From Chrysophaeum taylorii (taxonomy: Eukaryota; Sar; Pelagophyceae; Pelagomonadales; Pelagomonadaceae): 64,000 nt of DNA. A program made the translations under genes and the position numbers. This document shows, one piece after another, positions 17,241-43,760 of the stretch; position 1 is the stretch's first letter; each line of letters begins with the position of its first letter. The notes beneath the pieces are model-generated. The model had not been told where the DNA came from and made no database searches. It saw nothing but the letters and a program-made list of their open reading frames with translations. The DNA lies in contig JAQMWT010000212.1 in assembly GCA_029834535.1 (NCBI GenBank), forward strand, positions 21,383 to 85,382, given 5' to 3'.

Positions 17241-17249
17241 TCCACCGAA

Positions 17250-20303: not shown

Positions 20304-20646
20304 TGGAGGACGGTGCCTCATGAATCCTGAGCCTTGCGAGGGCATCCGCCCTCGCGGCGTAGGTTGGCACCTATTCGCCTCCCGGGTGGGCCGGTTGGCA
20401 GCCGGAACGTTCGCAGTGGGACGGGGTATGGCCGGGGGGCGAAGACGGAAGGTTATCGACGAGTTGGTTGTCAGTCACAACGCGGTCTCCTCGTCGCATG
20501 GCGACAAGCTTGATGGTCACTCTCCGCCGACCGAGCTTTCGGCGCTCCTCGTCTACAGGCCCGTGATTCCGGACTGGCTCCTGTCGGTCCGGCCTGGCTC
20601 CCATGCTCGGGAGAGGTCTGAAGTTAGTTAGTTAGTTTGGGCAGAT
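20262..20646 (+). mobile_element. SINE-like retroposon copy S2 with perfect 10-bp target duplication
   Basis: The body 20272-20636 is flanked by TTGGGCAGAT on both sides (20262-20271 and 20637-20646). It is a near-complete reference copy: head ACCCTTACCCTGATCGCCGA, a GC-rich centre, 3' domain GAGAGGTCTGAAG and tail (TTAG)n. It interrupts the RT codons of element C exactly between SQALG and the SRGMHTP block. Confidence 0.9.
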
Positions 20647-21461
20647 GTTCGCGTGGTATGCATACACCCACGTATGTTCACGTCCAAATGCTAGAGTATT
20701 TGCTTCGCTACCTCAAGAAGCCGGAAAACCGCTCACTTCGCCTCTGGTTCCATCCTAAAGGTAATGCCATTGAAGCTCACCTTCGCACTGTTTCCGCTAA
20801 TCGAATTGATCTATCCACTGTGGTCGACTACCAACCGCAGGATGTATCTACTGGACAGTTTGATCCCTTAGTTGCCATGGTTGACGCTGACAACGCCCCT
20901 TCCTTAGCACAGGAAGATAGGAAATCTACCACCGGGTTTGTCTTCTATCTTTTCAACTGCCTTATTGGTTGGAAAAGCAAACTTCAACCGATTGTCTCCT
21001 GCTCAACTCACGAAGCTGAGTTGATTGCCCTCAGTATTTGTGCTGATGAAGCTGTTTGGCTACGCAAGCTGCTGTTGGAACTCTCCTTTGTCGTCAACCC
21101 CACCTTCTACGTCAACAATACTATTGGTGAGAACACCGCTGATCCTGTCGACTTCGATGACAATGACAACCCAATAGCTGAAGATGTGCGCTTCATCAGA
21201 AGCCTACCTCACTTGTCTGACAATGCTGCCGCTGTTCGCACCTCTAATAACCCAGATGGGCCCTCTCGATCCAAGGCACTGTCGACTAGATGGTTTAAGA
21301 TTCGTAAGTACATATCGCTTCATAAAATACGAGTCCATCATGTTCCCGGCAAGCTGAACGTGGCGGATGGTTTTACAAAGCCACTTGCTGCTGAGTTCAC
21401 CACCTTTCGCTCTCTACTCGGTATGCATCATGCCTCTGACGACAGTCCTTTACAGGATTGA
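20637..21461 (+). pseudogene. copia RT C-terminus and RNase H (element C, distal part)
   Basis: After the SINE the text resumes with RGMHTPTYVHVQMLEYLLRYLKKPENRSLRLWF. RNase H follows: AMVDADNAPSLAQEDRKSTTGF (Asp), SCSTHEAELIALSICADEAVW (Glu), SLPHLSDNAAAVRTSNNP (Asp), and the tail RWFKIRKYISLHKIRVHHVPG, NVADGFTKPL. The frame ends at TGA 21459-21461. The same frame stays open beyond it and contains another S-L-N-Y motif (21479-21500), so the stop may be a mutation inside a longer polyprotein. Confidence 0.85.
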
Positions 21462-22554
21462 AGATGCCTAACCCTAGTGACCGCAACGTCGTTAAACTAC
21501 CAAACTAGCCCTGGCCCTACCTTCTTTTACCACAATATTATTTGGATCCGTCAAGTTTGGTCAAAAAGTTTGGTGAATTTCTTTCATGTTTGCTCGATTT
21601 TGATGTATGATTAAGGAAAAACTCACATGTGTGGTCACTTTCCATAGAAGTTATCGTCCGCCATTCTTCGGCAAGAGGCAGACGCCAAAAGACAAAGGTA
21701 AATGGTCGGGGTGACACGGATCACCCCATTCTGGATCCCAAAATCCGAGAGGGAGAGCGTCTTTGCGAATCGATTCAGGGTCGAGAGCGCGCATCAGAGG
21801 TTCTAAGGAGGGTGCCTCTTGATAGTGTTGTGGAGGTTGTCGTTGGCGGTCTTGTCGAGGCAACCACACGGCTATGTCGAAGTGCCCCCCGGGCGTTAAT
21901 GAACCATGGATTTGAAGTCGACGCGGGAGCTTTGAAATAAACAAGTCATCTGTGAGCCTTGTTGAACGAGCGGAGAACATGGCGCACTGGGTCCTTTTCT
22001 TGGAGCGAGGCTTTCCGGCCGGTGGAGCACGCGTAGGCCGTCCTGATTGATTGGATTTCTGCACGAAGCCTGTTGTTTCCGTGTCGAGTGCGTTGGGTGT
22101 ACATGCCCGATAGGACCGTGGGGTCACACGAACTCGCTGCTACAAACATTCTTGGACACTCCCATAAAAACACACATCATTGAACTCGGCTTCAAATATC
22201 GCACCGAATCGTTCTCGAAAGGTAAGAAGTACCCCATACTCAGCTCGGCAAGGATTCCCTTGTCTTCGTCGTTCGCATCATATCGCTCCGTATCGTCCCC
22301 GTTGTCGTACGTGACGGCGAACTTGTTTCTGGCGTAGGTGACTGTTCCAGGAACGTAGTGTTTAGGCTGCGCAGCGGGATATGGGACATCCGAAGCCATC
22401 ACCCGGACTGATTTGACACTCCTTCCGCGCGCCGTAAGCATATTGAGGGTGGTGGTGAGCTCGGCGCGCGCACGGTCCCACGCTTCTTTGTCTGTTGGCC
22501 ACCAGGGAGGAAACGAGCTTGTAGACGACTCTTTCTGCTGCTTGTTTGGGGGCT

Positions 22555-22740
22555 CGGTCGACGCGGGAGGCTCGGCTCGGTAGACGCGGGAGGCTCGGTA
22601 GACGCGGGAGGCTCGGTATACGCGGGAGACGCGGGAGGCTCGGTATACGCGGGAGACGCGGGAGGCTCGGTAGGCTCGGTAGACGCGGGAGGCTCGGTAG
22701 ACGCGGGAGGCTCGGTAGGCTCGGGAGGCTCGGTTGCTTT
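22555..22740 (-). repeat. coding minisatellite in the MULE C-terminus
   Basis: Tandem copies of a GC-rich 9- to 15-bp unit encode a run of EPPAST/EPPASPAYT repeats on the minus strand. Arg/Gly-rich ORFs on the plus strand across this stretch are shadows. Confidence 0.8.
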
Positions 22741-24806
22741 GCGGCCTCCTTTCCTCCGCTTTTTACTGGCGACCCGGGCTGCAGTTCCTTCTGGGTCCAA
22801 CCCGGCGAACGTCTTGGCCATTTCTTTTCGTGCTCGCTTCCGGTCCTTCTTTGACCCCGACCCCGTATTCTTCCGCAGCGAGGATTCTTGGCGTTGGTCG
22901 GTCTTTGGCCTGCCTGTCCGTCGGGGCCCGATCGCGGATGGCAGCCAAGGCTCAAACTCCTCACCAGCTTCTTTCCATTCGGCTTCAATTTCTCCTTGCG
23001 CCGATTCAATTTCCGTTGCGTTGAGAATCGGAAACACCCCCCCGACCAGATATTGATTTTCCCAACACTGCGTCGTGGTCCAAAGTGGATAGAGATCCTC
23101 AGCATGCTCACCGCGAGCTATCTGAGCTCCAATCATGCAAACGCACGGCAAGCGAGAGAACGCGTAGTTGCCACAGCTACAGGAAAGTACGTCGAGTTGC
23201 TCCGAATCTTCAAAATTCACGTATCCCTTCTGCCCGATAACAACGACGGACGTAAGTTGCTGATTGTTGTCACCTTTGACATACACCAAGAACGTCCCCT
23301 TATTGGCCCCAGCGCCGCCGCCGTAAGGCTGAACTCTTGTTATCCGGGTCTTGCTTTTGGGCATCATTATTGTAGTTGGGCCTACGGTTCACGCTTAGAT
23401 ATCACATAGAACAACCCGACAAGTGTGAACATAACAACGGGAGTTTGATCTGAAAAGACAAAGGCCCGTAGGCCCGTAAGTATTTGAGATGGTTGAGACC
23501 CTTGAGATTATTGGCCGAAAACACGCCATTCTGATCGAAGACAAGACGAAACTAATGACGCAACAATTTGCATCCGAACACGAGGAACACTCACGTGAGC
23601 CTCTCGCCAGTTTTTGCGCACCGGATGGCCGCTGCGCTCGTATCCGCGTAGGTCGTTGCCTGCTCAGCGAACAAGGTCTGGAGGGACTTGGGTCCGTTGC
23701 ATAACCTCGCGTTGATGTGCTTCTTGTTGAAAGCCTCCGCCGGGTTGTTCGTACTCGTGCCAAAGAGTGCCCTGGGCCCGTCTAACACTGTGACGGTGTC
23801 TGCTTCCTGATCGTTCAGATGCTTTCGCGCATATTCGCGCCGACTGGCAACCTGTAGTGCCAGAAACCTCAATGCCACGAGGAGATTATGACTCACCCAA
23901 CGCTGGGCCTTGGGAGAAAGTTCGGCATGAAAAGCGTCGCTGGCCGCCTTCGTAGGCGCCTCAACAAAGCGACGAAAGATAGCGGCGTCCCCGGATTCCG
24001 CGATCTTTGCGATGTTCTCGCTGCCGTGGTTCACTGTGAATAGGACGTATTCACGAAGAGTAAACAGTTCATCAAAGACTTACTGCACGAGAAGGCGTCG
24101 GCCTCGGGCGTATGCTGCGCAGGAATCGGAATTAGACGAGGAATCAAATGGTGCTAGCGAGGTCACTCACGGTGACGTGCGCTATGAGGCCTCCCTTTTG
24201 GAAGTCCTGTACTATGACGAATCCCTGACAGTTTCTGTGCGGGATGTTCTCGACGGTCAGTTTAATGACCTTGCCGATCGATTCCGCAGACTCGGTCATG
24301 TTCCACCGCGAAGTGGATATCATCACAAGGTGGTTGTTGGCATCACGGCCGGTCACAGAAATCATCACCTGGTTGTCGAGGCAGTGAGCGCCGTCAATAA
24401 ACGCCTGCCGGCGCAGGAGGCCCGCATTCATCATGCGTATGGCGGGTTTCAACACGACGACATAACCTAAGAAGAACTTCCTATCAGCCAAGGCAGGTGA
24501 CTGCAGCGTTTCAGGGATCTTGTAGTCGTTGAGGTCTAAGCTCTTGTACCGGCTCCTGTCGGAGCCATGCCTGAACTCTTGTTCCGACTTGTGCTCAGAC
24601 TTGAGCCTCTTCATGAATACCTTCAGGAGATCTCCTTGTTTCGCGCCATACAACTTAACCGCATGACCGTGGGCTCGCAACGCGCGCTGGCAAGTGTGCA
24701 ACTCCGCCTAAGAGAATGACAAGTGTGACTTTGATGCACACACGTGAATGTCGATGTGGCGAAGTATACTAACACACTAAGCTACGATTTTCGAGTGTGG
24801 TCACGA

Positions 24807-24996
24807 AACCAAAAGAGTTTGATCAGAAAGCTACAAGTTTAATCACAAAGTTTGATCACACGGACATAAGTTTGATCATAAAGTTACAAGTTTGGTCACC
24901 AAGTCAAAAGTTTGGTCATAAAGTCACACGTTTGGTCATACAGTCACAAGTTTTGTCACAAAGTTTGGTCAGAACATTACAAGTTTGATCACACAC
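24807..24996 (+). repeat. degenerate AAGTTTGGTCA array inside the MULE
   Basis: About ten copies of a loose ~17-bp unit (cACAAGTTTGATCAcaaag) lie between the zinc-module and catalytic parts of the transposase. The core AAGTTTGGTCA also occurs at both transposon ends (21553, 25900-25925). Confidence 0.75.
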
Positions 24997-25962
24997 ATGC
25001 ACCTCGCAGGACAACAGCCACAAACAAGACCTGCGCAAGACACCGCTGATACCGCGTTTCTCTCCTCGTTTCCAAAGAGCGCTAGGATGGACTTGAGCTA
25101 GATGTTCTCGACGGATGAGAGTGTATGCTCACGGTTCGTCATTTCATTGAGCCTTTCCTTGATGACGTTGTTGTGGACATCTACCAGACGCCTTTCCGAG
25201 TAGTGCCTCCTGACTTGCTCTCCATAGAGCCCTTCTTGATGATGGTCGTCACGGCCTCTAAGAAGTGCTCTGCGCGGTAGTTCGACTTGGGCTGGGTTTT
25301 CGTCGGTGTAATAACTCCTGTGTGAGGTTCATCATGCGTGACGACGAAGTCTATAAGCCCATCACGACGAGCAGCGCGCTTAAAGAAGCCGCAGCCCTCT
25401 ACTTTACACTTGAACGACAACGCCGTCGCGGTATTGATCATGTTATGCACGCTGTTGCTTGCCCCCCGTGTCGACCATCTTCTGCTGCAACTCGGCCTCT
25501 TCCCGAACGCACATACTAAATTCGGATTTCGTCGGGTAGCGTGAAAGCAGCGAAACGTGGTGCTTGAACATTCTGAGCTGCGACAGCGTACGCGGCGATC
25601 TGTCACAGTCGTTAACCTTCGTCAGGCCACGCTTGCCGTTCTTGGTGTCGTCGTCGCCCGACGTCAGCGTGATACCAGCACGGTCCCGCTCGACCTGAGC
25701 GAAGCCCTCGTCGATATCGACCTCCTCGTCATCCGTGTCGAAGTCGAAGGACGCTCCGGAGTCACGACGCGACATGCAGAACCTCCAAATGCTTGATCAC
25801 AGTGGGCCTTGTTTTGTCAGCGAGCCCTATCCTTGCTTTCCTCAAGCATAAGTTTAGTCAGCCAAGATACGGATTGACTAAACTTAAGTGACCAAACTTG
25901 TTGGGGATTTATGGTGACCAAACATACATGTTGGTTGGAAACTTGACTTTTCCCTATTATTT

Positions 25963-25999
25963 ATTTTTTTTTTTTGTACGTGTCGTGTGAGTGTCGCTC
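25963..25999 (+). repeat. T-rich run downstream of the MULE insertion
   Basis: A run of 12 T (25964-25975) lies between the RNase H frame and the 3' ORF of element C. A change in its length would alter whether the two are in frame. Confidence 0.7.
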
Positions 26000-27982
26000 A
26001 TGTCTTTTTCTTGGCACTCCCGTGGCCGTGGCCGTGGCATCTCTCCAGTCGTTCGAAGGACAATCCCACGCTCGCTTTCCACGCCTGAGCCTTCTCCCAA
26101 GTTGTCGCAAAAGCGACAACCCATGACCACTGTTGCTCCTGCTACCTCCCAGGCTGCTGCCGTCTCACAGACACCAGCTGAACATATCTTACATCAACCC
26201 CTAACACTCCAGGATGGCCTCAACATGGATTTTCCCCTGTTTGAACGAGGAATCTCTATCTCTGAGAACTTCCGTAGCCCTGCCACTCCCCTTCTCTCTT
26301 CTTTTATGCGAGCGGAAATCTCTACGGTACTCAACTCGATCTATCAGTCTACTGACTTTTTACTGTTTGTGGAACTAACAACAGTCATATCCATGCGCCT
26401 ACCCATTACTACATTTTGGGAAGCTGCTCCTGCTTTTGCTTCTATTGGCTGCTACAGAGGCCCCGAACGCGAACGTTTCATTCTGTCATCCTCCTGTACG
26501 CAATGCCTCAAAAATTTGGGACAACCGTCCTTCCTTGCCTCTACCACATATAATTCGAAGTGACAAGCACCTCGTGAACTCCCCACTGAAGTGCTGAGTC
26601 ACCTCAACACGGACGACCATAAGAAGAATGGTCACATCCCCATCTCGACTATCACTATGAATATTTGCTGCGCTTGTCACAACACCGATCAGGTGCCTAT
26701 GCAACGTATCGTATGTGCCCGCAATGCTACTTCCTTCCAATCCTCCTGTGATGGGTGCTCAGCTGGTCATATACGCGCAACCATCATACGCGCCTATCAT
26801 TGGCCAAGGGAGCTACATACACTTTTGACTAGCACTCTAACGCAACATCCGTAACTTGCTCATTTAGTCCTATCGGTACCCGATGCAGCCACAGACTCCA
26901 CCACTCAACTGCCATTCGCACTGGATCTTCGGCTTATTACTCCGATGCACCTTGAGCATCTTAACTTTCTTGTAACTCTTGTTCGAACACAGGCTCGTAA
27001 AGCCCAGGCTATGTTCAAGCCCTCCAAATACCACCGTGTGATTAATACTGTTGCCCAATCGTGGGCACAACATCTTGACGACTACGTATCATCCTCAGAT
27101 GATACAAAGCCGCCATCACTCCTGGATGTGATCTTCGGCCACATTTATACTCCGGCAGAATATCAAGACTTTCTGCACTTTCCAAACGCGAAATACCCCC
27201 TACTTGCACAACATGTGTTGACCGAAACGTCGTTAAACTACTCACTCTCCACATCAGAACCTACTCTGGAAATATCTTCGCCATCGACACACCCTGCTCC
27301 TTCTGCCTCGCCTGATGATGTCGATGCCTTGCGTCAACAAGTCGAGCAACTCCAGGAAACTCTTCGCCTACATACTCGCAAGGTCAACACCCTCAGCGCT
27401 GAGAATCTATCTCTGCGCACAGATCTGCAGGCTGCCATTGCTTCAATTACCTCCCTGGAGAACCGGCTCTTTCCTCCTACAGCCAATGCACACGTGTTGC
27501 TCCTAACTCTGTACAAGATCACAGAGGTGCTGTATCGCTTAACTCTTACAGCTCATGACCAATATGCCGCCAACCATTCCTCCCCGGACGATCACCTCCA
27601 TCATGTGCGTGATAAGTTGCTCTCGTGTATTCAAAGCATTCCCTTCACATGTGAATCAGAAGACCCTTCTATCTTCTCGGATCCGTTCGATGAGTCCAAC
27701 TTCTTGGAAAACCATCTGGACACCCTACAACTTGACTCGCTAGTGCCATCCATACTGAATGCTTTACTTGCACTCACGTTTCGTATGGTACCACACCATT
27801 CTGCTATTGGTGTTCACCACCTGACAGCAGAAGCTGACGAAGACGATACCGATACTCTCGAACCAGTAACGATGCCCACCACCTCAGATAGCCTTAACAC
27901 ACTGTCTGTCGTACCTGTGTTTCGTAATGCTCTGTTCGAAAGCGTCAAGTCGACTCTCAGCACCACCAAGTCCAAGTCCTAA
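26000..27982 (+). pseudogene. additional 3' ORF of element C (Cys-rich cluster plus coiled coil, unknown function)
   Basis: One reading frame runs from ATG 26000 to 27982 (about 660 codons) with only two breaks, TGA at 26561 and TAA at 26852. It lies between RNase H and the purine tract, where some LTR elements carry an envelope or accessory gene. The N-terminus is basic and Ser/Pro-rich (SWHSRGRGRG). In the middle is NICCACHNTDQ...VCARNATSFQSSCDGCSAGH, a possible zinc-binding cluster. An S-L-N-Y motif sits at 27220. A Leu-rich coiled coil follows (VDALRQQVEQLQETLRLHTR...LSAENLSLRTDL). No signal peptide or membrane segment is apparent, so it is not a typical envelope. I do not recognise its family. 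Confidence 0.65.
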
Positions 27983-28119
27983 GCCTTAAGACACCCTGCT
28001 ATACTCTTGTTGCTTTTTATGTGACCTCTGCGACCATCAAGGCTGTATGCTCCTTTCTTTCCTTCTTTTTTTATCATCATCTTTCTCAAGAGATGCTCTA
28101 TAGTCGCACCTTGCGCTTA

Positions 28120-28135
28120 AGACATCTCGAGGGGG
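28120..28135 (+). promoter_or_regulatory. polypurine tract of element C
   Basis: CTCGAGGGGG directly precedes the TGCAGAG start of the 3' LTR, the place where plus-strand DNA synthesis is primed. The same upstream text is present next to the minus-strand LTR copy at 61189. Confidence 0.7.
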
Positions 28136-28450
28136 TGCAGAGAAATCTGCTGCCTCTTACCCTTATCCGTCCGTTGAGAGCGTGATCTCTTCCTTACCCT
28201 TCTTCTTCCTTTCTACACAATCAAATAGTCCTCTGATTTGTGCCTACGCTCATCATCATGGTCTAGCGCGTCCCGAGGTATGTAGCACTGTACACTTTAC
28301 CTTTCTCGTGTAGTTCTAGATGCCGCCTGTCGTGTTCTGAGTATATAGGGAACATACCTTTTCATTCCCCGAATTAAATACTTCCAGACGTTCATGATGA
28401 GACGGGATGGTTTCCCAGGTGACTTACCACTGCCTGCAAAGTGCTCTGCA
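28136..28450 (+). repeat. 3' LTR of element C, followed by target duplication GAGAC
   Basis: 315 bp, TGCAGAG...CTCTGCA, matching 11505-11819 with about 14 substitutions and no length change. GAGAC follows at 28451-28455. Confidence 0.95.
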
Positions 28451-28455: not shown

Positions 28456-29240
28456 ACGTATTCCTCGAGGAAGTCGATCCATACGGGGCGATCGAGTGCC
28501 GATCGGATTAGTGCATGAGGAATGTCCGCGTGCGCGACCGGGACCTTGTGCTTCACAGCGATGGCGAGCAGTAGCCGGTTGGTAGCGAGCATTGCGGTTG
28601 GTGAGGATGTGGCATAAAAGTCAATGCCTGCACGTGCCAAGAAACCTCGGGCGACTAGACGAGCTTCGTAGCGGTCTGGAGTGCCGTCAGCAAAATACTT
28701 GATCTTCAGTACGAGTTTCGTCGAGATGACGAACGGTCTGGTGGTAAAGGATCAAGCTTGAAGACACCATTGGAGCACAATCCTTCAATTTCCTTGCGAA
28801 TCGAGGCTGTGCTTTAACTTGTCTTCTTCGCTGAGTCCTTTGAGTTCGACAATCTTTTCAGGCTCATAGACAATATCTTCAGCGGTCACAAGTTGTATTT
28901 CAGGCTCATAGACAATATTTTCAGCGGTCACAAGTTGTAAAACGACATGATCGATGTGCTGCAAATCATAGTCCATGACTTCTTGTATAATGTCTTGATT
29001 CGGACCACTTTGACTTAGGAAGAGGTGTCCGAGTTCGCCAGAATCATGCATGAAGGCATGCCTGTGACGAGAAGCTAGATGGTAGTGTTGATGTGCGGAG
29101 ATGTCCCACAAAAGAGAGGAACCCATACAACAGAATTCTTGATTCCATTCACGCGCATAGTACTCTGTCGGTGACATTTCGTCATGGCACATGTAGTTCT
29201 CGATAACAGAACTGTCGTTATCAAGGTGGTCAACCAACAC
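28456..29240 (-). pseudogene. copia RT, N-terminal part (E2, proximal part)
   Basis: Minus-strand text in order: VELKGLSEEDKLK, then KYFADGTPDRYEARLVARGFLARAGIDFYATSSPTAM, then VPVAHADIPHALIRSALDRPVWIDFLEEYV, with the first catalytic Asp in HADIP. It stops at the GAGAC target and resumes at 11499. Upstream (29240-28785) is an acidic linker with a 42-bp tandem duplication encoding QLVTAE(N/D)IVYEPE. Two frameshifts separate the linker from the RT text. Confidence 0.8.
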
Positions 29241-29249
29241 AGACGAGTG

Positions 29250-30950
29250 TTATGGCTTCCTGGGAAAGTCAACGTACAAGAGTTCCGCGTCGGTTTCTCT
29301 CTGCAAATCCAGTGCGGTGCCGCCCATGATACCATAGTCTTGTGTGGTACGTGCTAGGAGACATCCTTTCGGGACATCATTAGGCGGCTTAGCATCTCTT
29401 CGAATGTTGAGAGCAGAGGCGATGCTGGCGGCGTGGCCCTGGTGCAGAGCGCTGACACTGATGAGGAACATCAATGTGCTGGACATGTCGGCTGTGGCGT
29501 GAGCCGTGGATTGCTCCTGCTGGTATTTCCAGTTGCGACCATACTCTGAGGCGATAGTGCGTCTGGTGAAGAGTTTTCCATCGTCAACACGTTTCACGAT
29601 GTAGAGTTGATCCTTAGGGATGCGGAATCCACGTTCGTCATTGAGATCTGCTTTGAGCTTATCGCTCTGGTTACGATGCTCGAGAACTGGAGTAAGACCT
29701 GAATCAACGAGAACAACCTCTAGGCGATCTTTTCGTTTGGGCATCGGAATGCTACCATTCGGCGGAGGTGGCCGGTTGAGGAACGAAAAATCCTGTTCAG
29801 GTGTCGCGTCGCTGACGGGACTTGAATCAGTAGCGGGAGTTGGATCCTGTTCTTTGTGTTCGTCGTCATCGCTAGGTTTATCATCGTGCTCGTCTTCGTG
29901 AGTCTCGCCCTCATTTTTTGATTCCTGTCTAATTTCCGGCATTTGCTGTTCGCTTATAGCTGGTAGCGGGTCCTCTTGTATCCGTTCGATCTCCTTGTTT
30001 CGGTTGGCTGGCATGTCCGCGTCGACATGAAAGTCGTTTGAGGTGACGATTTTCCCATGTCGCCCTTGATGTACAAGCAGGATAGAGCTGTGAACATCAC
30101 GGATAAATCGGTCCGTTCCGGGGAGGTTCGGGGGATAGTTGTTACTATGAAAGTAAGAGGCAGAGACGCTGGAGGGTTCCAGTTTGTGACTTTGAGGGTA
30201 GACAAAAGTGACAGGTTCGCCAAAGGGGAGAAGCTTCAAGAGCGGTGCCGTGGGTGACATGATACGCCGGGGAACGGTGCATGGCATGTGCGTGCGCGAG
30301 GGCAGGCCATGAGAGCGCGGGTTGTCGGCTTGGATCTTATGCAGGAGAGCAAATGGGTGATAATACTCAGCGGCAATAGACTTTCCTTCGATGCGTACAC
30401 TGCGAAGGTCGAGGAGACGAACCACGGTGCCTCGGGTGTTTTCTTTGATAATGTTTTCAGCAAAGTTCCGCTGGTGGAGGTGGCGACCAAGGATTTGGAA
30501 TTGGAGACCAAGCTGCACCTTGAGAGGGTGGAAGGCTTCAGAGCGAAAAGTCGAGAATGCGTCAGAGGATATAATCTTGACATGGACATCGAATTCGACT
30601 TTGATCACGTTGACCACATAGAGGATGCCGGCCAGAACATCTTGTGCGTCTAATTTCCGTAGGAAATAAACCCATTTGTGTGCTGAGATGGTACACACGA
30701 AGTGCATGATATAGCGAAATCCGCCGTAGCACTTGCGGATGCTCGGGTATGACACATCCATGTGGAGGTGTTGGCCAGGAGCATAGGCCAGTTCATCCTG
30801 TGACCAGGAAGTGTTTTTGTGACTGAAGCTTACATGCGATTGGCACCGCTTGCATTCACTGCAGTCTAGTAGATACCGATCATCACCCGGGCGGAGGTTC
30901 GTTACATAGCGGCAATCGTTCGGCGAAGAATCTCTGGTTGCTGGTGGTGT
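29250..30950 (-). CDS. copia integrase (E2)
   Basis: The open ORF is 30761-29250, but the same frame extends upstream to about 30910. There it encodes the zinc Cys pair DCSECKRCQSH before HLHMDVSYPSI, which holds the first catalytic Asp. The second Asp is in IISSDAFSTFRSE and the Glu in HQRNFAENIIKE, so the D,D-35-E triad is intact. The C-terminal 250 residues are acidic and Pro-rich (EDEHDDKPSDDDEHKEQ). They include NRPPPPNGSIPMPKRK and HRNQSDKLKADLNDERGFR, which are shared with E1. The product inserts the cDNA into the host genome. Confidence 0.85.
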   Translation of the reverse strand, partial: TPPATRDSSPNDCRYVTNLRPGDDRYLLDCSECKRCQSHVSFSHKNTSWSQDELAYAPGQHLHMDVSYPSIRKCYGGFRYIMHFVCTISAHKWVYFLRKLDAQDVLAGILYVVNVIKVEFDVHVKIISSDAFSTFRSEAFHPLKVQLGLQFQILGRHLHQRNFAENIIKENTRGTVVRLLDLRSVRIEGKSIAAEYYHPFALLHKIQADNPRSHGLPSRTHMPCTVPRRIMSPTAPLLKLLPFGEPVTFVYPQSHKLEPSSVSASYFHSNNYPPNLPGTDRFIRDVHSSILLVHQGRHGKIVTSNDFHVDADMPANRNKEIERIQEDPLPAISEQQMPEIRQESKNEGETHEDEHDDKPSDDDEHKEQDPTPATDSSPVSDATPEQDFSFLNRPPPPNGSIPMPKRKDRLEVVLVDSGLTPVLEHRNQSDKLKADLNDERGFRIPKDQLYIVKRVDDGKLFTRRTIASEYGRNWKYQQEQSTAHATADMSSTLMFLISVSALHQGHAASIASALNIRRDAKPPNDVPKGCLLARTTQDYGIMGGTALDLQRETDAELLYVDFPRKP

Positions 30951-31294
30951 ATGCGGTGCCAGCGAGTGACCAAAAGCACTCTTTTGGCGTGCTGAGTGGT
31001 GCCGGGCTGGTGCAAGGGAGGCAGAGCGGCAGTCGAAGCGCTGGGGGGGCTGGGTCGCTTGTCGACTCGGATTTTAGCAACGGCTGCCTCGGCAAGAAGC
31101 GTCTCGAGGTTTGTCGATTTGCTTGGTTTGCGGATCGCATCATGGTGAGCATCTGCAACGGCATTGCAGAGGGAGGTGAGGTTCAGGTCTTCCTCTGCTA
31201 AGAGACGGCTGGAGATGGCTGAGGAGAATTCTGCAACCTGGTGGAGGTCTCCGGGGCTGGGGATGCCATATTGTAGCCCATTCGACGTGAAGGT
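30951..31294 (-). pseudogene. methyltransferase-integrase linker of E2 pol
   Basis: The matching stretch in E1 (45470-45880) reads WATIRNGIPSPGDINQVAEFF...VRVDKRPSPRR...LVTRWHRIHH and contains the integrase His pair. E2 carries a 1-bp insertion in a CAC run at about 31300 that ends the methyltransferase frame. A second shift follows, so this stretch is read only in pieces (for example KECFWSLAGTAYTTSNQRFF in a shadow frame). Confidence 0.6.
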
Positions 31295-32905
31295 TCACGT
31301 GTGGTGGTGCGATTCGTGGGATGCGAGGACAGCGCTGTACTTTGCCTGCATCATGTGGTGCGGGACGGCGTTGGCCAGTGCCTTCAACGCGAAGTACGGC
31401 GGGTGCTGTTTGAAGAGTCGGATCAGTTCCGGGTCCGAGTGGTGTTCAAACTTTGCGATTTCGTTGAGGGTCGCATAGCGGATGTGGTCTGGAGATATCA
31501 GCAGCAAGGCATTGGAGTAGCTCGTGTTGGTGGGGTACGAGCCAGTGACCGAGTAGCACTTGGTGCTCTTTTGAAGCGTGTCTCCGATGTGGCCGACATA
31601 GTCCGCGTAAGTGGGACGTGCTTTGGACATTACGAGTCCCTTGGGGTCATCGAGAGCAATTCGCCCTTGTGAGTCGATCGCGGCAAAGCCAGGATGCGAA
31701 CGATTCACATAGTGGACCCAAGTGGACGGGCGCGAACAGTGAGCGGCGGCCAAGGAGGTGGTGTAAGCGACGACCAGAAAGGCGATGCCCTTGGGAACAT
31801 CCAGGGAAAACGAGTGCGTTGGGGAGAAGACTGCGGGTCGATGGGAACAGTCCAAAGTGTTAGGGGGCCTGGGATGGAGGGTGAGCGAGGCGCGCGGGAA
31901 GTAGCCACAGGCGACGGCAGTAGCGGCGGTGCTGGTGATGGCTCCATCCCAATGGTAAGCACATTTGGACTCTGAGGCATGAAAACAGCGGATGGTGTTC
32001 CAAGCGGCGAGAGTGGGGTGTTGCGACAAATGGTGGTGCAGGAGCGTGAAAACCAGTAGGTTGGAAATGGACGCCATTGTGGCGTAGGGGGTGCCGTCGC
32101 CATCGAGACCGAGGTCCGTGACGGGCTTGGTGAGACGTGCGAGCATTTGGCAGATGCGGGCATTATCGGAAATCGAGAGTTTCGAGGCGTTGGCAGGCTT
32201 GTAGGAATAGGTGGCCTTGTGCTGGTAGTAGTCCAATGTGGAACGGGGCACTGTACCACGAAGGGCGGGTTTGGCGATCCAGAGATCGTCAGGGATGGTG
32301 TGACTGGGATCCAGGAGAGGAACCATGCTCGGAGGCGAGGTTAACCAAGTAGAGGCGGTTTTCTCGAGGTTGTAGCCGGTGAGCGGGTGCCGGGCATACA
32401 CAGCGAGATAGCGTGTCTTGCTGATGACATCACCAAAAGCAGAGGCATTGTAGACGCCGGAGTGGCGGAAGTAGCCTAAGCGCTGATAACCTTTGGCGAG
32501 TTGAGTATACTCATGGTGAGTTCGGGGGTTGGGAGGTACGTTCTCGACAATGGCATAGGTCGGGAGCGTGCAACGAACGAAGCGGAGTTGTTCTTTGACG
32601 AAAAGGTCGGCGGTGACCGGAGTGGCATGACCGTCGTATTCTTTCATTACACTCAGATGCTGGCAGGGCAATGTAAAAACTGCCAGGTAGAATGTAGGGA
32701 GTCGTATTTTGCCGGTTTGGAGTGCGGCATTGAGTTTTCTGAGGTCCGCATAGTGCTTGGCATGCGGAAAGAGGTGTTGCGCACGGGTGCGCAGGATATC
32801 GTTGATTTCACAGGTGACTACGACAGTTAGGCGTTTGTCGAATCGTTTGCGAAAAGTGTCGAAACCTTCCTGGTGGAGTCCACCTGCAATAATGGCGGTT
32901 CTGAG
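31295..32905 (-). CDS. DNA cytosine-C5 methyltransferase domain of copia pol (E2), motifs I to X
   Basis: This open frame of 536 codons carries the full C5-methyltransferase signature. Motif I: AIIAGGLHQEGFD. Motif II/III: VVVTCEINDILRTRAQHLFP and YADLRKL. Motif IV: LAVFTLPCQHLS with the catalytic Cys in Pro-Cys-Gln. Motif VI: YAIVENVPPN. Motif VIII: YNASAFGDVISKTRYLAVYAR. Motif IX-like: HIRYATLNEIAKFEHHSDPE. Motif X: ALANAVPHHMM. About 330 residues separate VIII from IX, a long target-recognition region. The expected reaction is transfer of methyl from S-adenosylmethionine to cytosine C5 in DNA. It lies between protease and integrase. The upstream frame is joined after a C10 slip at about 32910. 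Confidence 0.88.
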   Translation of the reverse strand, partial: LRTAIIAGGLHQEGFDTFRKRFDKRLTVVVTCEINDILRTRAQHLFPHAKHYADLRKLNAALQTGKIRLPTFYLAVFTLPCQHLSVMKEYDGHATPVTADLFVKEQLRFVRCTLPTYAIVENVPPNPRTHHEYTQLAKGYQRLGYFRHSGVYNASAFGDVISKTRYLAVYARHPLTGYNLEKTASTWLTSPPSMVPLLDPSHTIPDDLWIAKPALRGTVPRSTLDYYQHKATYSYKPANASKLSISDNARICQMLARLTKPVTDLGLDGDGTPYATMASISNLLVFTLLHHHLSQHPTLAAWNTIRCFHASESKCAYHWDGAITSTAATAVACGYFPRASLTLHPRPPNTLDCSHRPAVFSPTHSFSLDVPKGIAFLVVAYTTSLAAAHCSRPSTWVHYVNRSHPGFAAIDSQGRIALDDPKGLVMSKARPTYADYVGHIGDTLQKSTKCYSVTGSYPTNTSYSNALLLISPDHIRYATLNEIAKFEHHSDPELIRLFKQHPPYFALKALANAVPHHMMQAKYSAVLASHESHHHT

Positions 32906-33771
32906 CAGAGGGGGGGGGGCTGCGCAGAGAGGTCTGCTGAGCCATTGAAGGTGTAGTGGACGACAGAAGATTGGATGTTGAGCAGTTCGGTAAGATACAT
33001 GGAATGATTTTGTAGCTTCGCGAAGTCAAGCGTGTGCGATTTTGAGCGTGTCTTTGCGACATGCTTTGTGATGTGTGCAATCTCATCTTGGAGTGACATT
33101 CGTTTTCTTGTGTGAAAGCTGACCACAGTGGCGAATGTTTGCTTGGGGTGGGATGGCAGGGACAACAGGGCGTTAGGCTTGCGAGTGGCAAGTACGACGG
33201 CGGTCTTTCCTAGAAGTGTTGCATAATTGTGGGGGTCTGAGGTTGAGGAATGTAGGAGCTCATAAAGGTAGGGCTCGTGGGTCGGTGGCGGGTCTGTTGC
33301 TTGTACATGCAGAGCTTTGAGCTGAGATGTTGCTATAACTTGAAGACCTGGTCTGAATTGCGGGACTACCATAAATACGAGATATAAAGCGCAACCGGTT
33401 TTGTCTTTTGTATCCTTGGAAGAGAGACCAGCAGCCTGCAGATACAACGGATTAACACCGATGAAGTGACTGGTAAGAGTGCCTCTTCCCATATGAATGG
33501 TGTGTTCGGGAATTCGGCGGATGGTCTCGGGAACAACATTTTGAATTGTGCGCGTAAAGCAAAAAGATGCGCCACCGTCTATCAATGAGGTGCCATTGCA
33601 TCCGTGCAGCGAACTAGTCTTCTTTGAGGTCTTTTCGGGGGTGTAAGCTGCACAAAGAAAATCTGCGGCTCTTGTGGAAATAGTTGATGAGGTCGGGAAA
33701 TGCGTCATCTGGAGGTTTGGTGCCTGATGAAGTAAGGTGTGGTTGGCGGCACAGGCGTCGTCGGCAACCAT
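32827..33771 (-). CDS. copia aspartic protease region (E2)
   Basis: SLIDGGASFCFTR is the protease site (Asp-Gly-Gly-Ala-Ser). It is followed by HTIHMGRGTLTSHFIGVNPLYL, and then by a region ending in ELLNIQSSVVHYTFNGSADLSAQPPP. At the poly-C run (about 32910-32919) the frame slips, and the true continuation is the methyltransferase frame. The ATG overlaps the gag stop (TGATG at 33771), a stop-start junction also present in E1. Confidence 0.75.
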   Translation of the reverse strand: MVADDACAANHTLLHQAPNLQMTHFPTSSTISTRAADFLCAAYTPEKTSKKTSSLHGCNGTSLIDGGASFCFTRTIQNVVPETIRRIPEHTIHMGRGTLTSHFIGVNPLYLQAAGLSSKDTKDKTGCALYLVFMVVPQFRPGLQVIATSQLKALHVQATDPPPTHEPYLYELLHSSTSDPHNYATLLGKTAVVLATRKPNALLSLPSHPKQTFATVVSFHTRKRMSLQDEIAHITKHVAKTRSKSHTLDFAKLQNHSMYLTELLNIQSSVVHYTFNGSADLSAQPPPLCSEPPLLQVDSTRKVSTLFANDSTNA

Positions 33772-35989
33772 CAGCGAAAAAGCCGACTCTTGTGGAGAGC
33801 ACGCATGTAGTCACTGTGACGTTTAGCGTAGTCTTCGGCGGAGTCATCTTCATCACTGGTTTCGGGAATGGCGTCGTCGTAGAGGTCTAGCTGACCTATG
33901 TCGTCATAGAAGCCGAGATGTCCTTTGTCGTCTTGTTCATCGGTTTCGGCTTCGCCCTCATCATATTGAGCGTCTTGGGGATCGGACGTTAACATCTGGA
34001 GGAATTCGGCGGCGTCATTTTCGGCTTCGGAAAGAAGTATATCGTCGGAAATGGTGGTGATGGGGTTGATTAGCTTGTTCATATGCTCGGAGCTGGACGT
34101 ATGTTGGCGACCGGCTTGGCTAAGATTCCGTATGGTTTGGAGCTTGCGACGGACTTCACGAAGGGGGACCTTGAAGCCCTGGTCTGGAGTAGACGGTTTT
34201 GGGGGATGAGGTTGTGTGGGGAAGGTGACCTTGCGAAGATGCGGGTGCTCTCGTTTGTCGGGGGTGACAGGAGGAGCGCGGGGACGGTGCTTGTTCTTCG
34301 GTGGGGTGACAGGGGTGGCCTTGGGCTTAGGACTGTCATTAACGTCGTAGTAAGACGGGGAGCGAGGATTTGGAGGCTTTTTGCCTGGAGGGGGCTTTTT
34401 GACGTGCCGCGAGATTTGCTTCTTGCGGTAGGCGCGTAGTTGGTGAATGAGGTCATTGTCTTCCTCTTGATGAAGATTGGCCTCCGTGAGAAAAACGGCG
34501 ACGGGGTCGGTGTCTTCAATGGGGTCCGGTGGGGTGTCGTCTTCAGAGGGAGAGGTGTCATCATCGTCTTCGGTGAGGTGGAGACCATGACGGCGGGAGC
34601 GAAAGCGGGGGTTGTCTTTGTCTTTTGTGGGCAGACGACCAAAGTCCGCAACGAAGCGCAAGGGCTTGAAATTAAGAGTGGGGTGAGGCTTGAGGTGAGC
34701 CCAAAAGTTGCGCTCGAACGTCGAGATGACGGTGATGCGAGCGATGAGCTTAGGAAGGTGGTGGATGGCGTCCTTGTCTTCGTCGAGTAACAGCGAATCG
34801 TCGGGTGTGCGCAGACAGTTGGCAAGACGTGCAAAGCCCTTTATGTGTGTTTGGGCGCGGGAGTCAAGCAAGCTTAGGGGTACTTGAATCGGAGAATTTG
34901 GTGAATTTATTCGAGGATCTTGTGGTCAGGAAGTTGGAGAGAAGTGTCCGTGGTTATCTGGCGGAGTTGCTGCTGGACATGACGCATGTAGTCGATGTAG
35001 TGAGCTGGCTCATGGATTTCAGGGTTGAACGGCGTGTCCAGAAAGGCAATGTAAACATAATGCGCATGGTGGATGTGGTTCTGGCCCGTATGCTTATCGA
35101 GTGCGAGGCGAACTTGAAGCACGAATTCGAGTCCTATCGGGTAGGAGGATCCGAGTGCATCGATTTCGTCGTATGCGGGGTGCTTGACGGAGTCGCTACC
35201 GGCATGTAGGAAACGACGAAAGAGGGGGTGTACAGTCTCGCGGAGATCTACGATCAAGTCGGCTTCTTTTCCTTGGTGATGTGGTTGAGTAGTTGGATAT
35301 AACTTGCCTTTTGTCATGTCGGTTGGGTCCTTGTATTGATCTTTTAGTTCTTGAGGTTTTGGCTCGTATACGTTGTCCAGGAAGTGCTTGCCGAACTTGC
35401 GGTATACACCCTTGTAGTAGACGTAACGGCCTTGGAAATCTTGCGTGTTCCCGGCGGTAGAGTGGCTGTCGGGGTCCTTGTCGTATTCGTCGATACAGTG
35501 GCTTAGGAGAGCGTCAGCGAGATCGTTAGATCCGCGCAGGACGGATTCCCACGTGTAGAAGCCCGGTAGGAAGTACTGAGTTATGCCTGTTTCCGGCATC
35601 CCATGTTCGACGAACAATTGCATGACGCGAAACGAAAGCACTTGGGGTGTGACTTGCGCCGAGGCCATGGACTTGAGAACGGCACTTGGTGGGTCACTAA
35701 AGGTCTTGATCTTAGACTTGGGATCTTATTGAGCCGGAGTGGGAGGCGGAGCCGCAGCAGCGACGGCAGGTGGTGGTGCTTGCGTTGCTTGCATTTGGGT
35801 GGACAAAGCGCGTATTTGAGTCATCAAGCGAGTTTCTTGGTCTTGCATCTCTTGTTTATGCCGAGCTTCGTACGCTCGAGCTTGTTGTTGCATGTCTCTT
35901 TGGTACTTGGCTTCTATACGAGCTTCTTGTTCTCTTAAACGAGCTTCTTGTTCTCTTATCTCCTTCTGGACTTCTTGGTTCGTCGGCAT
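33771..35989 (-). pseudogene. copia gag (E2)
   Basis: The start is ATG 35989: MPTNQEVQKEIREQEARLREQE, a charged coiled coil rich in Glu/Gln/Arg, then APPPAVAAAAPPP. An in-frame TAA at about 35727 is followed by VTPQVLSFRVMQLFVEHGMPETGITQYFL, YTWESVLRGSNDLADALL and DFQGRYVYYKGVYRKFGKHFLDNVYEP (to 34907). After a frame change, DSRAQTHIKGFARLANCLRT continues through an acidic C-terminus to RALHKSRLFR at 33771. Overall it is about 740 codons. It has no zinc knuckle and no detectable similarity to C-family gag. E1 (40400-42634) and E3 (60024-60700) share it. Confidence 0.78.
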
Positions 35990-36074: not shown

Positions 36075-36267
36075 TAGAGAACAGTAATCACAACCGTGTT
36101 ACCCTTCAGCAGAGCGTGAGAACAGTGGTAGTCTGTCCTCGAATCTGTTTCTAAATCGAGGACAGCCGGTGTGAATAACACAGCGTTTTCTTACATCAAA
36201 GGTGGCAAAGTTAAGTGAACTAACCATAGAATCGAGGGTACTAACCCTAGTTCAGATTTCCTAACTA
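36075..36267 (-). repeat. 5' LTR of E2
   Basis: About 193 bp, matching 9888-10082. On the plus strand it begins TAGAGAACAGTAATC. The outer end at TAGTTAGGAAATC is a mutated form of TAGAGATAGAAAAT. Confidence 0.85.
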
Positions 36268-36282
36268 CTAATCGACAGATGT

Positions 36283-40111: not shown

Positions 40112-40310
40112 TAGATATGCAAAATTTGATTTAGGGTTAGTTCCCCCCCCTATCCTAGGATTAGCTCTCTTACTTCTAGCACCTATTAATTTCAGAAAAA
40201 CGCTGTGTTGTTCACAAGGTGCTGTCCTCGTTGTAGGAAACAGGACTAGGGCAGACTACCACTGCTCTCACTCTGCTGAAGGGTAACATAGTTAAAATTA
40301 CTGTTCTCTG
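40112..40310 (+). repeat. 5' LTR of E1 and adjacent primer site
   Basis: It starts TAGATATGCAAAATTTGATT and ends TTACTGTTCTCT, about 199 bp. GGGTATTGGGCACCAG (40310-40325) follows as the diverged half-tRNA primer site. Confidence 0.8.
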
Positions 40311-40399
40311 GGTATTGGGCACCAGTCCCGGCATCAGCAGAGTACCAGTATTTCCAGTCGAGTTTCGCTCTCTGACGTTCCTGACCAACCAAAACCAAG

Positions 40400-42634
40400 A
40401 TGCCAACCAAGCAAGAACTTCAACAAGAATGGCCACTCAGAAGACCCAACATTAACAGCCATGAAAGACCAAGAAGATCGCTTAATGGCATAATTCAATG
40501 CTCAATTCACCGCGTTCGCAGCCCAGATACAGCAACACCAAAACATTCCACCACCTGCCGTCGCCGCTGCGACTGCTCCTCCCACGGCTCAACAAGACCC
40601 CATAAACAAGCCTAACACCTTTAGTGACCCACCAAGCTCTGTCATCAAGTCCATGGACGGCGCTCAAGTCACCCCCCACGTGCTCTTGTTTCGCGTTATG
40701 CAGTTGTTCGTTGAACATCTCATGCCCGAAACCGGCATTACACAATACTTCCTACAGGGCTTCTACACGTGGGAATCCGTCTTACGCGGATCTAACGATC
40801 TAGCAGACGCTCTCCTAAACCACTGCATCAAGGAATATGACAAGGACCCCGACGACCATGCCACAGCCGGCAATACTCAAGATTTCCAAGGCCGCTTCGT
40901 CTACTGCAAGGGCGTCTACCGCAAGTTCGGCAAACACTTCCTTGAGAACGTCTATGAGCCAAAACTCCAAGAACTTAAAGACCAAGACAAAGATACGACC
41001 GATACGACGAAAGGAAAGTTAGATCCGACCACGCAACCCCATCTCCAAGAAAAGAAGCCGACTTCGTCGTGTACCTCCGCGAGACCGTGCACCCCCAATT
41101 TCGCCGTTTCCTACATGCCGGTAGCAACTCCGTCAAGTACCCAGCATACGACGAGATTGATGCACTCGGATCCTCCTATCCGATAGGACTCGAATTCGCA
41201 CTACAAGTCCGTTTCGCACTTGACAAGCACGCGGCCAGAACCACGTCCATCATGCGCATTATGTCTTCAATGCCTTCCTGGACACGCCGTTCAACCCAGA
41301 GGTCCATGAACGAGCGCACTATATAGATTATATGCGCCACGTTCAACAACAGCTCCGTCAAATCACCGGCGACCCTTCTCTTCAACTTACCGACAACACG
41401 ATACAACAAAAAATCCACAAGATACTCCGTTTTAAATATCCCCCAAGCTTGCTTGACTCCCGCGTCCCGACCCACATCAAAGGCTTCGCACGTCTTGCCA
41501 ACTGCCTTCGCACCCCCAACGACTCGCTCTCACTCGACGAAGACAAAGAAGCGATAAGCCATCTGCCCAAGCTGGTCGCCCGCATCAGGCTATCTCCACC
41601 TTCGAGCGCAACTTTTGGGCTCACCTCAAGCCTCACCCCACCCTGAATTTCAAGCCGTTGCGATTCGTCACTGACTTCGGTCGTCTGCCGACCAAAGATA
41701 AAGACAATCCACGTTCTCACCCCACCCTGAATTTCAAGCCGTTGCGATTCGTCACTGACTTCGGTCGTCTGCCGACCAAAGATAAAGACAATCCACGTTT
41801 TCGCTCCCGCCGTCATGGCCTCCACCTCACCGAAGATGATGACGACACCTCACCCTCTGAAGATGATATTCCCCCAGATCCTGATGAAGCATCCCCAGAA
41901 ACAACGACCCCGTTGCCGTTTTTCTCACGGAAGCCAACCTCGATCCAGATGACGACACCGATCTCATCCAACATCTCCACGCTTACCGCAAGAAACAACT
42001 ATCCCGCCATCAGAAGAAAACCCCACCGAAAAAGCCTCCCAATCCTCGCTCACCGTCGTACAATGACATCAATGACAGCCCTAAGCCCAAGGCCACCCCT
42101 GTCACCCCAACAAAGAACAAACACAACCCCCGTGCTTCTCCTGTCACCCCAGACAAACGCGAGCACCCGCACCTCCGCAAGGTCACTTTTCCCACTCAAA
42201 CGCACCCCCCAAAGCCATCCACTCCTGACCAACGGTTTAAGGTCCCCCTCCGTGATGTTCGTCGCAAGCTCCAGACCATCCGGAATCTTAGTCAAGCCGG
42301 CCGCCAACACACCTCAAACTCAGAGCGCATGACCAAGCTCATCAACCTCATTACCACTATCTCCGACGAGATACTCCTCTCCGAGGCTGATTCCGACGCC
42401 GCCGAGTTTCTTCCGGTGCTATCATCCGATCCCCAGGATGATCCACCAGACGAGGGCGCAGCCGACGACGCCGATGACCAAGGCCACCTCGGTTTTTATG
42501 ATGATCACGGACAGCTATGCCTATACGACGATCACATCCCCGAAATGGAAGATGAAGACGACTCCGCCGAAGACAACGCACAACGCCAGAGCGACTATAT
42601 GCGTGCTCTACACAAGAGCCAGCTTTTTCGATGA
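40400..42634 (+). pseudogene. copia gag (E1)
   Basis: The start MPTKQELQQE matches E2's MPTNQEVQKE, but the coiled-coil part is frameshifted. Then VTPHVLLFRVMQLFVEHLMPETGITQYFL to DFQGRFVYCKGVYRKFGKHFLENVYEP (40653-41060), AYDEIDALGSSYPIGLEF (to 41210), RHVQQQLRQI...DSRVPTHIKGFARLANCLRT (41332-41600) and an acidic C-terminus ending RALHKSQLFR at 42634. Bases 41634-41801 hold an 84-bp in-frame tandem duplication encoding HPTLNFKPLRFVTDFGRLP twice. The final segment is in the original frame. Confidence 0.78.
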
Positions 42635-43365
42635 TGGTTGCCGACGACGCCTGTGCCGCCAACCAAACTTTACTAAATCAGGCACCAAGCCTCACGATGA
42701 AGAATTTCCCGACATCATCAACACTTTCCCCCAGAGTCGCAGAATTTCTTTGTGCCACTTACACTACAGGAAAGGCCCCCACAAAGACCAACTCACTGCA
42801 CGGATGCAATGGACCCGGCACTGAAGTTTCTTTGATTGACGGTGGCGCATCTTTTTGCTTCACTCGCACAATACAACATTTTGTTCCCGAGTCCATACGC
42901 AGGATTCCCGAACATACCATCCGCATGGGCAGAGGCACCTTAACCAGCCATTTCATCGGTGTCAAACCGCTGTATTTGCAGGCTGCAGGTCTCTCCTCAA
43001 AAGATATCACAGACTCCACAGGCTACGTATTATACTTCGTCTTTTTGTTGTCCCGCACTTCAGGTCAGGTTTACAGGTTATAGCGACCTCTCAACTGAAA
43101 GCTCTGAACGTCCAGGCAACAGACCCACCGCTGCTGCACGAATCATACTTGTACGAACTTCTGAAAACTCCCACTTCAGATCCTCACGATTACAAAACGC
43201 GTATAGGCACGACTGCAGTAGTTCTCGCCAATCGCCAAACCAATGGTCTCTTGTCACTGCCATCCCATCCAAAGCAAACATTCCGCGCTGTGATCAGTTT
43301 CCACACCGGAGCGAAAATGTCCCTCAAGGATGAACTTGCACACATAACGCAGAACGTCGCAAAGA
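42631..43365 (+). pseudogene. copia aspartic protease region (E1)
   Basis: MMVADDACAANQTLLNQAP starts on ATG codons overlapping the gag stop (ATGATGG). VSLIDGGASFCFTR is the active site, as in E2, but E1 has a 3-residue insertion before it (GPGTEVSL). The frame breaks near 43050 (VFLLSRTSGQ) and continues in another frame through SLKDELAHITQNVAKN to the SINE insertion at 43366. Confidence 0.72.
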
Positions 43366-43704
43366 ACTAACTAACTAACTAACTTCAGACCTCTCCCGAG
43401 CATGGGAGCCATGCCGGACCGGCAGGAGCCGGTGCGGAATCACAGAGGAAAATCACGCAGTTGGGGCAGAGGCGAGGGACGAGGACGGACTTGTTGATGG
43501 TGGACCGCCACTGCGCGCGGTCTTGTGGGAGGTCGTGCAAAAGCGTCGCGGGCCGCGGACGTGGTGGCCCACGAACAATCGACCTGTCCGTCGCATTCTG
43601 CCCAACCGAGCGAACCCCATCCCAGCGCGGACTTTCCGGGTGCTAACCGGCCAGCCCGGGAGGCGAGCATGCACCGTCTCACTCCAGGACGGCCGTCGCA
43701 AAGA
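43355..43704 (-). mobile_element. SINE-like retroposon copy S3 with 11-bp target duplication
   Basis: The body 43366-43693 is flanked by CGTCGCAAAGA (43355-43365 and 43694-43704). On the minus strand it ends in GAGAGGTCTGAAGTTAGTTAG. The centre matches S1 (5411), including GGACAGGTCGATTG. It interrupts E1 pol between HITQNVAK and the following TRSQSHHLDFAK, which rejoin exactly if the insert is removed. Confidence 0.88.
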
Positions 43705-43760
43705 CACGCTCACAATCCCACCACCTCGATTTCGCAAAACCACAGAACCATTCTGCATTT

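Follow-up and report, generated by a model that had tools for sequence, protein, structure and literature searches.

Sequence analysis confirms that the minus strand at 32905-31295 of the window (the whole stretch of 64 000 nucleotides analysed here, from the pelagophyte Chrysophaeum taylorii) encodes, as part of the Pol polyprotein of a Ty1/Copia retrotransposon, a predicted C5 DNA methyltransferase (MTase) domain located between protease and integrase. The enzyme class, the Copia nature of the carrier and the place of the domain within it had been put forward in an original prediction, and all of them hold. The open frame consists of 536 codons and a stop, and sits in a 576-codon stop-to-stop frame at 33025-31295; the domain and its key residues are located as follows.

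31295..32905, minus strand: C5 DNA MTase domain of Copia Pol (PF00145 above cut-off, residue conservation, dN/dS)
32665-32663, minus strand: MTase catalytic Cys81, in motif IV
32545-32543, minus strand: MTase Glu121, in motif VI
32413-32411, minus strand: MTase Arg165, in motif VIII
31372-31370, minus strand: MTase Asn512, in motif X

The window copy matches the Pfam profile PF00145 with an E-value of 5.2e-6 and 26.6 bits (cut-off 22) over profile positions 44-159 of 324, i.e. significantly, and to the very profile whose silence the original prediction had named as grounds against itself. In an alignment of 14 stop-free MTase copies (A1: the window copy and 13 loci of the C. taylorii genome), PF00145 is matched by all 14 at E <0.001 and its cut-off exceeded by 13, with 22.9 to 35.5 bits; the sole copy under it is L012 (19.6 bits). 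For TIGR00675 dcm, too, each of the 14 gives a match at E up to 1 (2.3e-8 at best); at 25.3 bits the window copy falls far short of the model cut-off of 100.65. Both phrog_116 and phrog_363, 'DNA methyltransferase', are likewise matched by all 14 (best E 1.5e-10 and 7.7e-10, respectively), the PHROG alignments of the window copy starting only downstream of motif I. Comparison of the A1 profile with the PDB returned just two matches up to E 1, both to C5 MTases and suggestive only: a 'cytosine-specific methyltransferase' (E 0.047) and M.HhaI (E 0.38). Two AlphaFold2 models, made from window sequences alone, are of very low confidence (mean pLDDT 30.6 and 39.5); at that level the order of strands and helices in both resembles that of C5 MTases, and the best Foldseek match obtained with the models has an E-value of 0.78, i.e. 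noise.

The motifs follow one another in the expected order, namely IV (LPCQHLS), VI (VENV), VIII (NASAFGD..SKTRYLAV), IX and X (LANAVPH). The catalytic Cys of motif IV is conserved in 42 of the 42 copies counted, the Glu of motif VI in 41 of 41 and the Arg of motif VIII in 42 of 42, while in motif X the Asn is found in 34 and the Val in 37 of 38 copies. Thus, the motif series of the original prediction stands for IV, VI, VIII and X. Its motif I (AGGLHQEGF) does not conform: the canonical motif I of C5 MTases, which serves SAM, is FxGxGG, and IIAGGLHQEGF is read at that place, with the GG retained in 41 of 41 copies. The acidic residues of motifs II and III (E33 and D54) are invariant across the 14 A1 copies. 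The aberrant motif I lowers confidence in MTase activity; the assignment is carried by the profile match and the catalytic motifs. Between motifs VIII and IX lies an insert of about 300-305 residues, without a Pfam match in any copy scanned; the long insert of the original prediction is thus real and constrained (dN/dS 0.30), at a length of about 305 rather than ~330 residues. The constraint and the missing Pfam match fit a region that might serve in target recognition.

Purifying selection on the domain, with its catalytic residues kept, is shown by the comparison of coding sequences. Over 20 copies (190 pairs), pooled dN/dS is 0.26 for the MTase as a whole and rises along it from 0.20 (motifs I-VIII) through 0.29 (VIII-IX region) to 0.42 (motifs IX-X); in this first copy set, integrase has a pooled value of 0.15 and protease one of 0.29 (171 pairs). 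Ten disjoint pairs gave 0.20 for the catalytic half of the MTase (binomial P 2e-61), 0.26 for the whole MTase, 0.30 for the VIII-IX region, 0.14 for integrase and 0.29 for protease. In sliding windows over the second copy set, dN/dS of the MTase is lowest, at 0.14-0.15, over residues 361-480, which correspond to motifs IV to VIII. As all these values include decay after insertion, the active lineage may be more tightly constrained than they indicate. That the domain has lost catalysis, and persists within Pol in a structural or nucleic-acid-binding role, would be in keeping with the aberrant motif I, with Pfam matches confined to the middle of the profile and with the one copy of 14 under the cut-off; the strict conservation of Cys, Glu and Arg and the position of the dN/dS minimum argue against it, leaving this explanation a slim chance.

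Synonymous divergence of the MTase (residues 601-840 of the L064 frame, for which see below) lies well below that of protease and integrase in the first copy set, and below that of protease only in the second. No inference is drawn from it because both sets were chosen by MTase score; biased copy choice, recombination or an overlapping signal could each account for it.

How the domain is embedded in the element is best seen at locus L064, where a single uninterrupted frame of 1952 codons contains, in this order, protease (SLIDGGASFCF, by motif reading), MTase, an HHCC finger (also by motif reading), integrase and reverse transcriptase (RT). In that frame RVT_2 is matched at residues 1686-1933 (E 1.6e-38) together with PF00145, and the integrase core profile rve at residues 1016-1110 (17.2 bits, under the cut-off). 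The presence of RVT_2, with integrase ahead of RT, supports the assignment of the element to Ty1/Copia. In the gag-like region of the same locus (L064:857-1291), a 218-bp tandem duplication is found, the two units being 99.5% alike. The window copy has two changes of the Pol frame, one upstream of the MTase and close to ten consecutive C (32919-32910), the other where the domain ends on its 3' side. The 536-codon open frame looks free-standing because the Pol frame changes on both of its sides; it is present as originally described, and, judged from the continuous frame of L064, it is a part of Pol and no autonomous gene.

The window element is also longer than was first apparent, its RT being split by a nested LTR element, beyond which the RT resumes at 11504 and the element ends in its 3' LTR. 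No target-site duplication was recognised at its outer ends. Its parts, together with the other elements concerned, are the following.

36075..36270, minus strand: 5' LTR of the MTase element, about 196 bp, 93.4% alike to 9888-10082
34907..35725, minus strand: gag-like region, part 1 (by position), an open frame with no Pfam match
33771..34925, minus strand: gag-like region, part 2 (by position), an open frame with no Pfam match
32827..33810, minus strand: aspartic-protease region (SLIDGGASFCF), in a different frame here and joined to the MTase in L064; motif reading, no Pfam match
29250..31294, minus strand: HHCC zinc finger (motif reading) and integrase core, in two frames (rve E 4.3e-4, 20.9 bits, under the cut-off of 32.6; position in the L064 polyprotein)
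28456..29249, minus strand: region before RT and N-terminal part of RT, interrupted by the nested insertion (by tblastn, L064 residues 842-1785 lie at 31301-28470)
11505..28450, plus strand: nested 16.9-kb LTR element within RT, with 316-bp LTRs 95.6% alike and the target-site duplication GAGAC
10128..11504, minus strand: remaining RT and, by position, RNase H, past the nested insertion (RVT_2 profile positions 108-232, 70.2 bits; L064 residues 1791-1952 at 11504-11019)
9888..10082, minus strand: 3' LTR of the MTase element (LTR pair comparison)
40122..47204, plus strand: second, frameshifted copy of the MTase family, with its MTase part at about 43845-45483

The nested element has a Copia RT at 17229-20300, and no MTase match at E up to 0.01 was obtained in the six of its open reading frames that were scanned; two open reading frames scanned beyond the RT are without a clear family, one of them giving a weak coiled-coil match (26858-27979). 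The second MTase-family copy contains a 331-bp piece (43365-43695) that is also present at 5474-5799. The window further contains several copies of a short repeat on both of its strands, 94-99% alike, at 20276-20637, 56064-56350, 57864-58225 and 58810-59001.

The C. taylorii genome searched comprises 70.8 Mb in 697 contigs, the published one being given as 71 Mb in 702 contigs (PMC10366177). At least 90 rows match the Copia MTase by tblastn at 57-100% identity (81 scored of 830 first-look candidates), and 16 of 90 are free of stops from MTase residue 1 or 2 through to residue 535 or 536. These numbers bear on the notion of an annotation artefact, either by chance motifs or by a contaminating bacterial MTase gene joined in assembly. 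The Pfam score of the single copy is indeed modest and partial; set against this are the spread of matches through the genome, the agreement of all 14 aligned copies in three profile libraries and the single frame shared with RVT_2, besides the fact that no relative was confirmed in viral contigs and prokaryote genomes, all of which makes an artefact hardly credible. Searches for homologues in other genomes yielded none, either with the domain alone (7998 candidates scored) or with the polyprotein (7990), candidates having to share 5-residue words; the null carries some weight because the same database holds eukaryotes, as seen from 871 matches to the DNMT5 region among 7991 scored.

The association of the domain with Pol appears to be stable within the family. 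For 87 of 119 typed protease places an integrase match lies within 6 kb on the same strand, at a distance never below 810 bases: 35 gaps measure 1585-1717 bases, that of L064 being 1660; another 47 exceed this range, lengthened by partial matches, and five fall short of it. Since no copy among these 87 pairs has protease directly beside integrase, the MTase looks fixed in this Copia family. Other Copia RTs are abundant in the genome, with 1670 first-look RVT_2 candidates and, among 150 of them scored, one (C58) recognised by its place as belonging to the MTase family. The pairwise distances of MTase and integrase are closely correlated (Mantel r 0.88, none of 999 permutations being as high), and those of MTase and protease less so (r 0.57, 2 of 999 permutations).

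LTR elements make their double-stranded cDNA inside a particle which also holds the Pol products. The MTase, released by the protease or remaining joined to integrase or RT, would be present in the virus-like particle, where it could meet and methylate the new double-stranded cDNA before or at integration, such that new copies would arrive already marked. Host DNMT5 could then maintain the mark written by the element. The gain for the element would probably be tolerance, with its cDNA protected, the new copy kept quiet and the host suffering less damage. That this Copia family, with a C5 MTase in Pol, methylates its own new cDNA, with host DNMT5 maintaining the mark and the element gaining tolerance, is a reading we hold in even balance. 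The original prediction had raised, as a possibility only, that the element methylates its own or host DNA, for instance to escape or remodel silencing. The aberrant motif I, the lack of a clear CpG footprint (see below) and the abundance of other Copia RTs speak against self-methylation, as do the mobility of elements without a DNMT and the one tested domain, that of SymbioLINE, which methylated no DNA in yeast (both PMC5890265).

The domain might instead act chiefly in trans on host chromatin, by silencing rivals or marking target sites, rather than on the cDNA of its own element. Such activity would be favoured by the hundreds of places with an MTase in a 71-Mb genome, and a spill-over of this kind has been raised for Symbiodinium (PMC5890265). 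However, the linkage to Pol and the agreement with integrase distances suggest action in cis within the particle, and the two host MTase loci are CpG-rich (observed/expected 1.26 for L021 and 1.42 for L057), so that an action mainly in trans is considered quite unlikely.

The base composition of the copies was inspected for traces of methylation. CpG is not depleted in the MTase copies (observed/expected 1.04 vs 1.01 for the window), and C/T differences at fourfold sites amount to 0.131 at CpG, 0.153 at CpC and 0.117 at CpT. Thus, no clear CpG-decay footprint of long-lived CG methylation is seen in the MTase copies by CpG observed/expected ratio or at fourfold sites, a test whose power is restricted by codon bias, repair and selection. 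Transitions relative to transversions are most frequent at CpG (ratio 1.43 vs 0.67-1.01), possibly a weak effect of methylation.

The lack of a clear footprint also fits a domain that methylates RNA rather than DNA, in the manner of DNMT2, with the genomic RNA of the element or its tRNA primer as substrate. Action of the C5 DNA-MTase fold on tRNA is established from DNMT2, as is the dependence of LTR elements on a tRNA primer. For SymbioLINE, methylation of RNA has been considered, its domain having methylated no DNA when tested in yeast (PMC5890265). The match of the Copia domain to host DNMT2 is not significant (hhalign E 0.29), which does not favour an RNA substrate. Nor does the long VIII-IX region, unlike the short one of DNMT2, and methylation of RNA is therefore judged unlikely.

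Copia elements are not the only carriers of MTases in this genome. Among 124 PF00145 rows, 102 fall in Copia or Gypsy MTase elements, two are host genes and 20 are unplaced. The 30 rows taken as loci comprise one DNMT2-like (L021), one DNMT5 (L022/L057) and 28 aligning to the Copia polyprotein; the other 94 comprise 15 rows in Gypsy-type stretches, 33 at Gypsy-MTase places, 13 at Copia-MTase places, 13 beside a Copia protease or integrase match, and the 20 unplaced, of which 18 resemble Gypsy rows and two Copia rows by their profile positions. Gypsy elements with a C5 MTase of their own before RT form two subfamilies, with at least 126 and at least 131 scored places, 41% alike in the MTase domain; a few places are 100% alike to the query and therefore probably young. 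RT was Pfam-confirmed in both stretches scanned, L056 and L058. Each of the seven Gypsy domains in the alignment exceeds the PF00145 cut-off; they have a canonical motif I (FSGAGG or FAGAGG), PPC in motif IV, a motif VI that retains its Glu but lacks ENV, and the Arg of motif VIII. Comparison of L056 with L054 gives a dN/dS of 0.07 at a dS of 1.7, near saturation, and the Gypsy profile finds four C5 MTases in the PDB at E 0.11-0.72. The Gypsy-MTase stretches are L051-L056, L058-L062 and L067-L069, some of them partial and some with open frames of 1800-3067 codons.

A common origin of the Copia and Gypsy MTases was considered and is without support (hhalign E 0.57); the two were apparently captured separately. 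The Gypsy domain aligns with host DNMT2 over general C5 motifs (E 5e-4), and the Copia domain with a 117-sequence DNMT5 profile over motifs II-VI (E 0.0015); these profile-profile links are insufficient to name the source of either MTase. With Gypsy elements of the same genome carrying their own C5 MTase, the trait seems to pay repeatedly here.

As to the host itself, L021 is probably a DNMT2-like tRNA enzyme, judging from a full-length PF00145 match and its motifs, and DNMT5 is encoded at L057:1468-7725 by a single 2086-codon frame that holds an MTase and a SNF2 domain. This DNMT5 shows full identity to C. taylorii CTAYLR_010750 across the region searched, and its nearest named relatives in other species, among the matches listed, are from Pelagophyceae sp. 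CCMP2097 and Aureococcus. No host MTase besides these two was recognised in a six-frame search, which may miss intron-rich genes and leaves 20 rows unplaced. DNMT5 is described, with reference to Huff and Zilberman 2014 and Dumesic 2020, as a maintenance enzyme in Cryptococcus, and as correlating with linker methylation in the pelagophyte Aureococcus (PMC9998398). Since DNMT5 is of the maintenance type elsewhere, a de novo mark coming from an element could persist in the host.

Retrotransposons are normally the targets of cytosine methylation. A broader proposition, that in C. taylorii de novo cytosine methylation originates from them, with Copia and Gypsy MTases marking the cDNA of their elements and a host in which no de novo DNMT was recognised merely copying by DNMT5, is rather unlikely on our assessment; if true, it would mean a methylation system split between a parasite that writes and a host that copies. 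C. taylorii NIES-1699 was sequenced by native Nanopore reads along with one whole-genome-amplified library (PMC10366177), the latter suitable as the control for 5mC calling if the raw signal is public. In any case, hundreds of retrotransposon C5 MTases, in both Copia and Gypsy elements of a 71-Mb genome, widen a trait that the literature searched details only for dinoflagellates and one charophyte, and suggest repeated capture; they also make the origin of new methylation in lineages having only DNMT5 a testable matter.

Retrotransposon-borne DNMTs are already known, including in algae and dinoflagellates, PMC5890265 being the one source in the literature searched that treats them in detail, in agreement with the precedent invoked by the original prediction. 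Some such domains, with SymbioDIRS-Dnmt3 named, are reported to perform de novo CG methylation in yeast, and methylation of the cDNA has been proposed for DIRS elements (PMC5890265). One sentence in another source mentions 'LTR Copia' and DIRS elements with DNMT3 (PMC12344493); the 2018 report it cites names Gypsy, so that the phrase could be either an error or a genuine Copia instance, and the word 'pelagophyte' is absent from the text of PMC12344493. No retrotransposon C5 DNMT in a pelagophyte or other stramenopile was found in passages of PMC5890265, PMC12344493, PMC9998398, PMC12477816, PMC3145265, PMC4522978, PMC9033089 and PMC11105155, most subscription journals lying outside the search. 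In Ectocarpus, the transposon-borne enzyme is of the N4C/N6A type, a different kind (PMC12477816). The text of the C. taylorii genome paper does not contain 'transpos' or 'repeat', and its lone uses of 'methylation' and 'methyltransferase' concern polyketide synthases (PMC10366177).

With a C5 MTase inside its coding frame, conserved by selection, the present element can be counted among the DNMT-encoding retrotransposons. It differs from the host DNMT5 at L057, with which it shares a C5 MTase domain, in its aberrant motif I and in the lack of the SNF2 ATPase, no match to SNF2 being obtained in the L064 Pol frame at E up to 0.01. The subtelomeric repeat of Mycosphaerella graminicola likewise holds many genomic copies of a DNA methyltransferase sequence, but it is an amplified host gene inactivated by RIP and not part of a retrotransposon (PMC4522978). 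Closer is Symbiodinium, as far as described in PMC5890265, with hundreds of retrotransposon DNMTs in a single algal genome and in several element classes (SymbioDIRS-Dnmt3 and SymbioLINE-Dnmt); the orphan DNMT type of SymbioLINE and a host methylation thought to be made by Dnmt5 and Dnmt6 are further likenesses. There, however, the carriers are DIRS and LINE elements with a tyrosine recombinase or an endonuclease, and Copia elements are without a DNMT, whereas Copia and Gypsy are the carriers in C. taylorii. KnitGypsy-Dnmt3 of Klebsormidium nitens shares with the present family a C5 DNMT in the Pol of an LTR element, conserved key residues and purifying selection (Ka/Ks < 0.2 in KnitGypsy), but it is a Gypsy element of a streptophyte with an enzyme of the Dnmt3 family, (PMC5890265), whereas the Copia MTase of this pelagophyte has been assigned to no family, is too diverged for a reliable tree, and stands apart by its aberrant motif I and its VIII-IX region of ~300 residues. 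What appears to be new here is thus a Copia Pol as the carrier, an MTase that combines this motif I with this ~300-residue region, and a stramenopile as the host.
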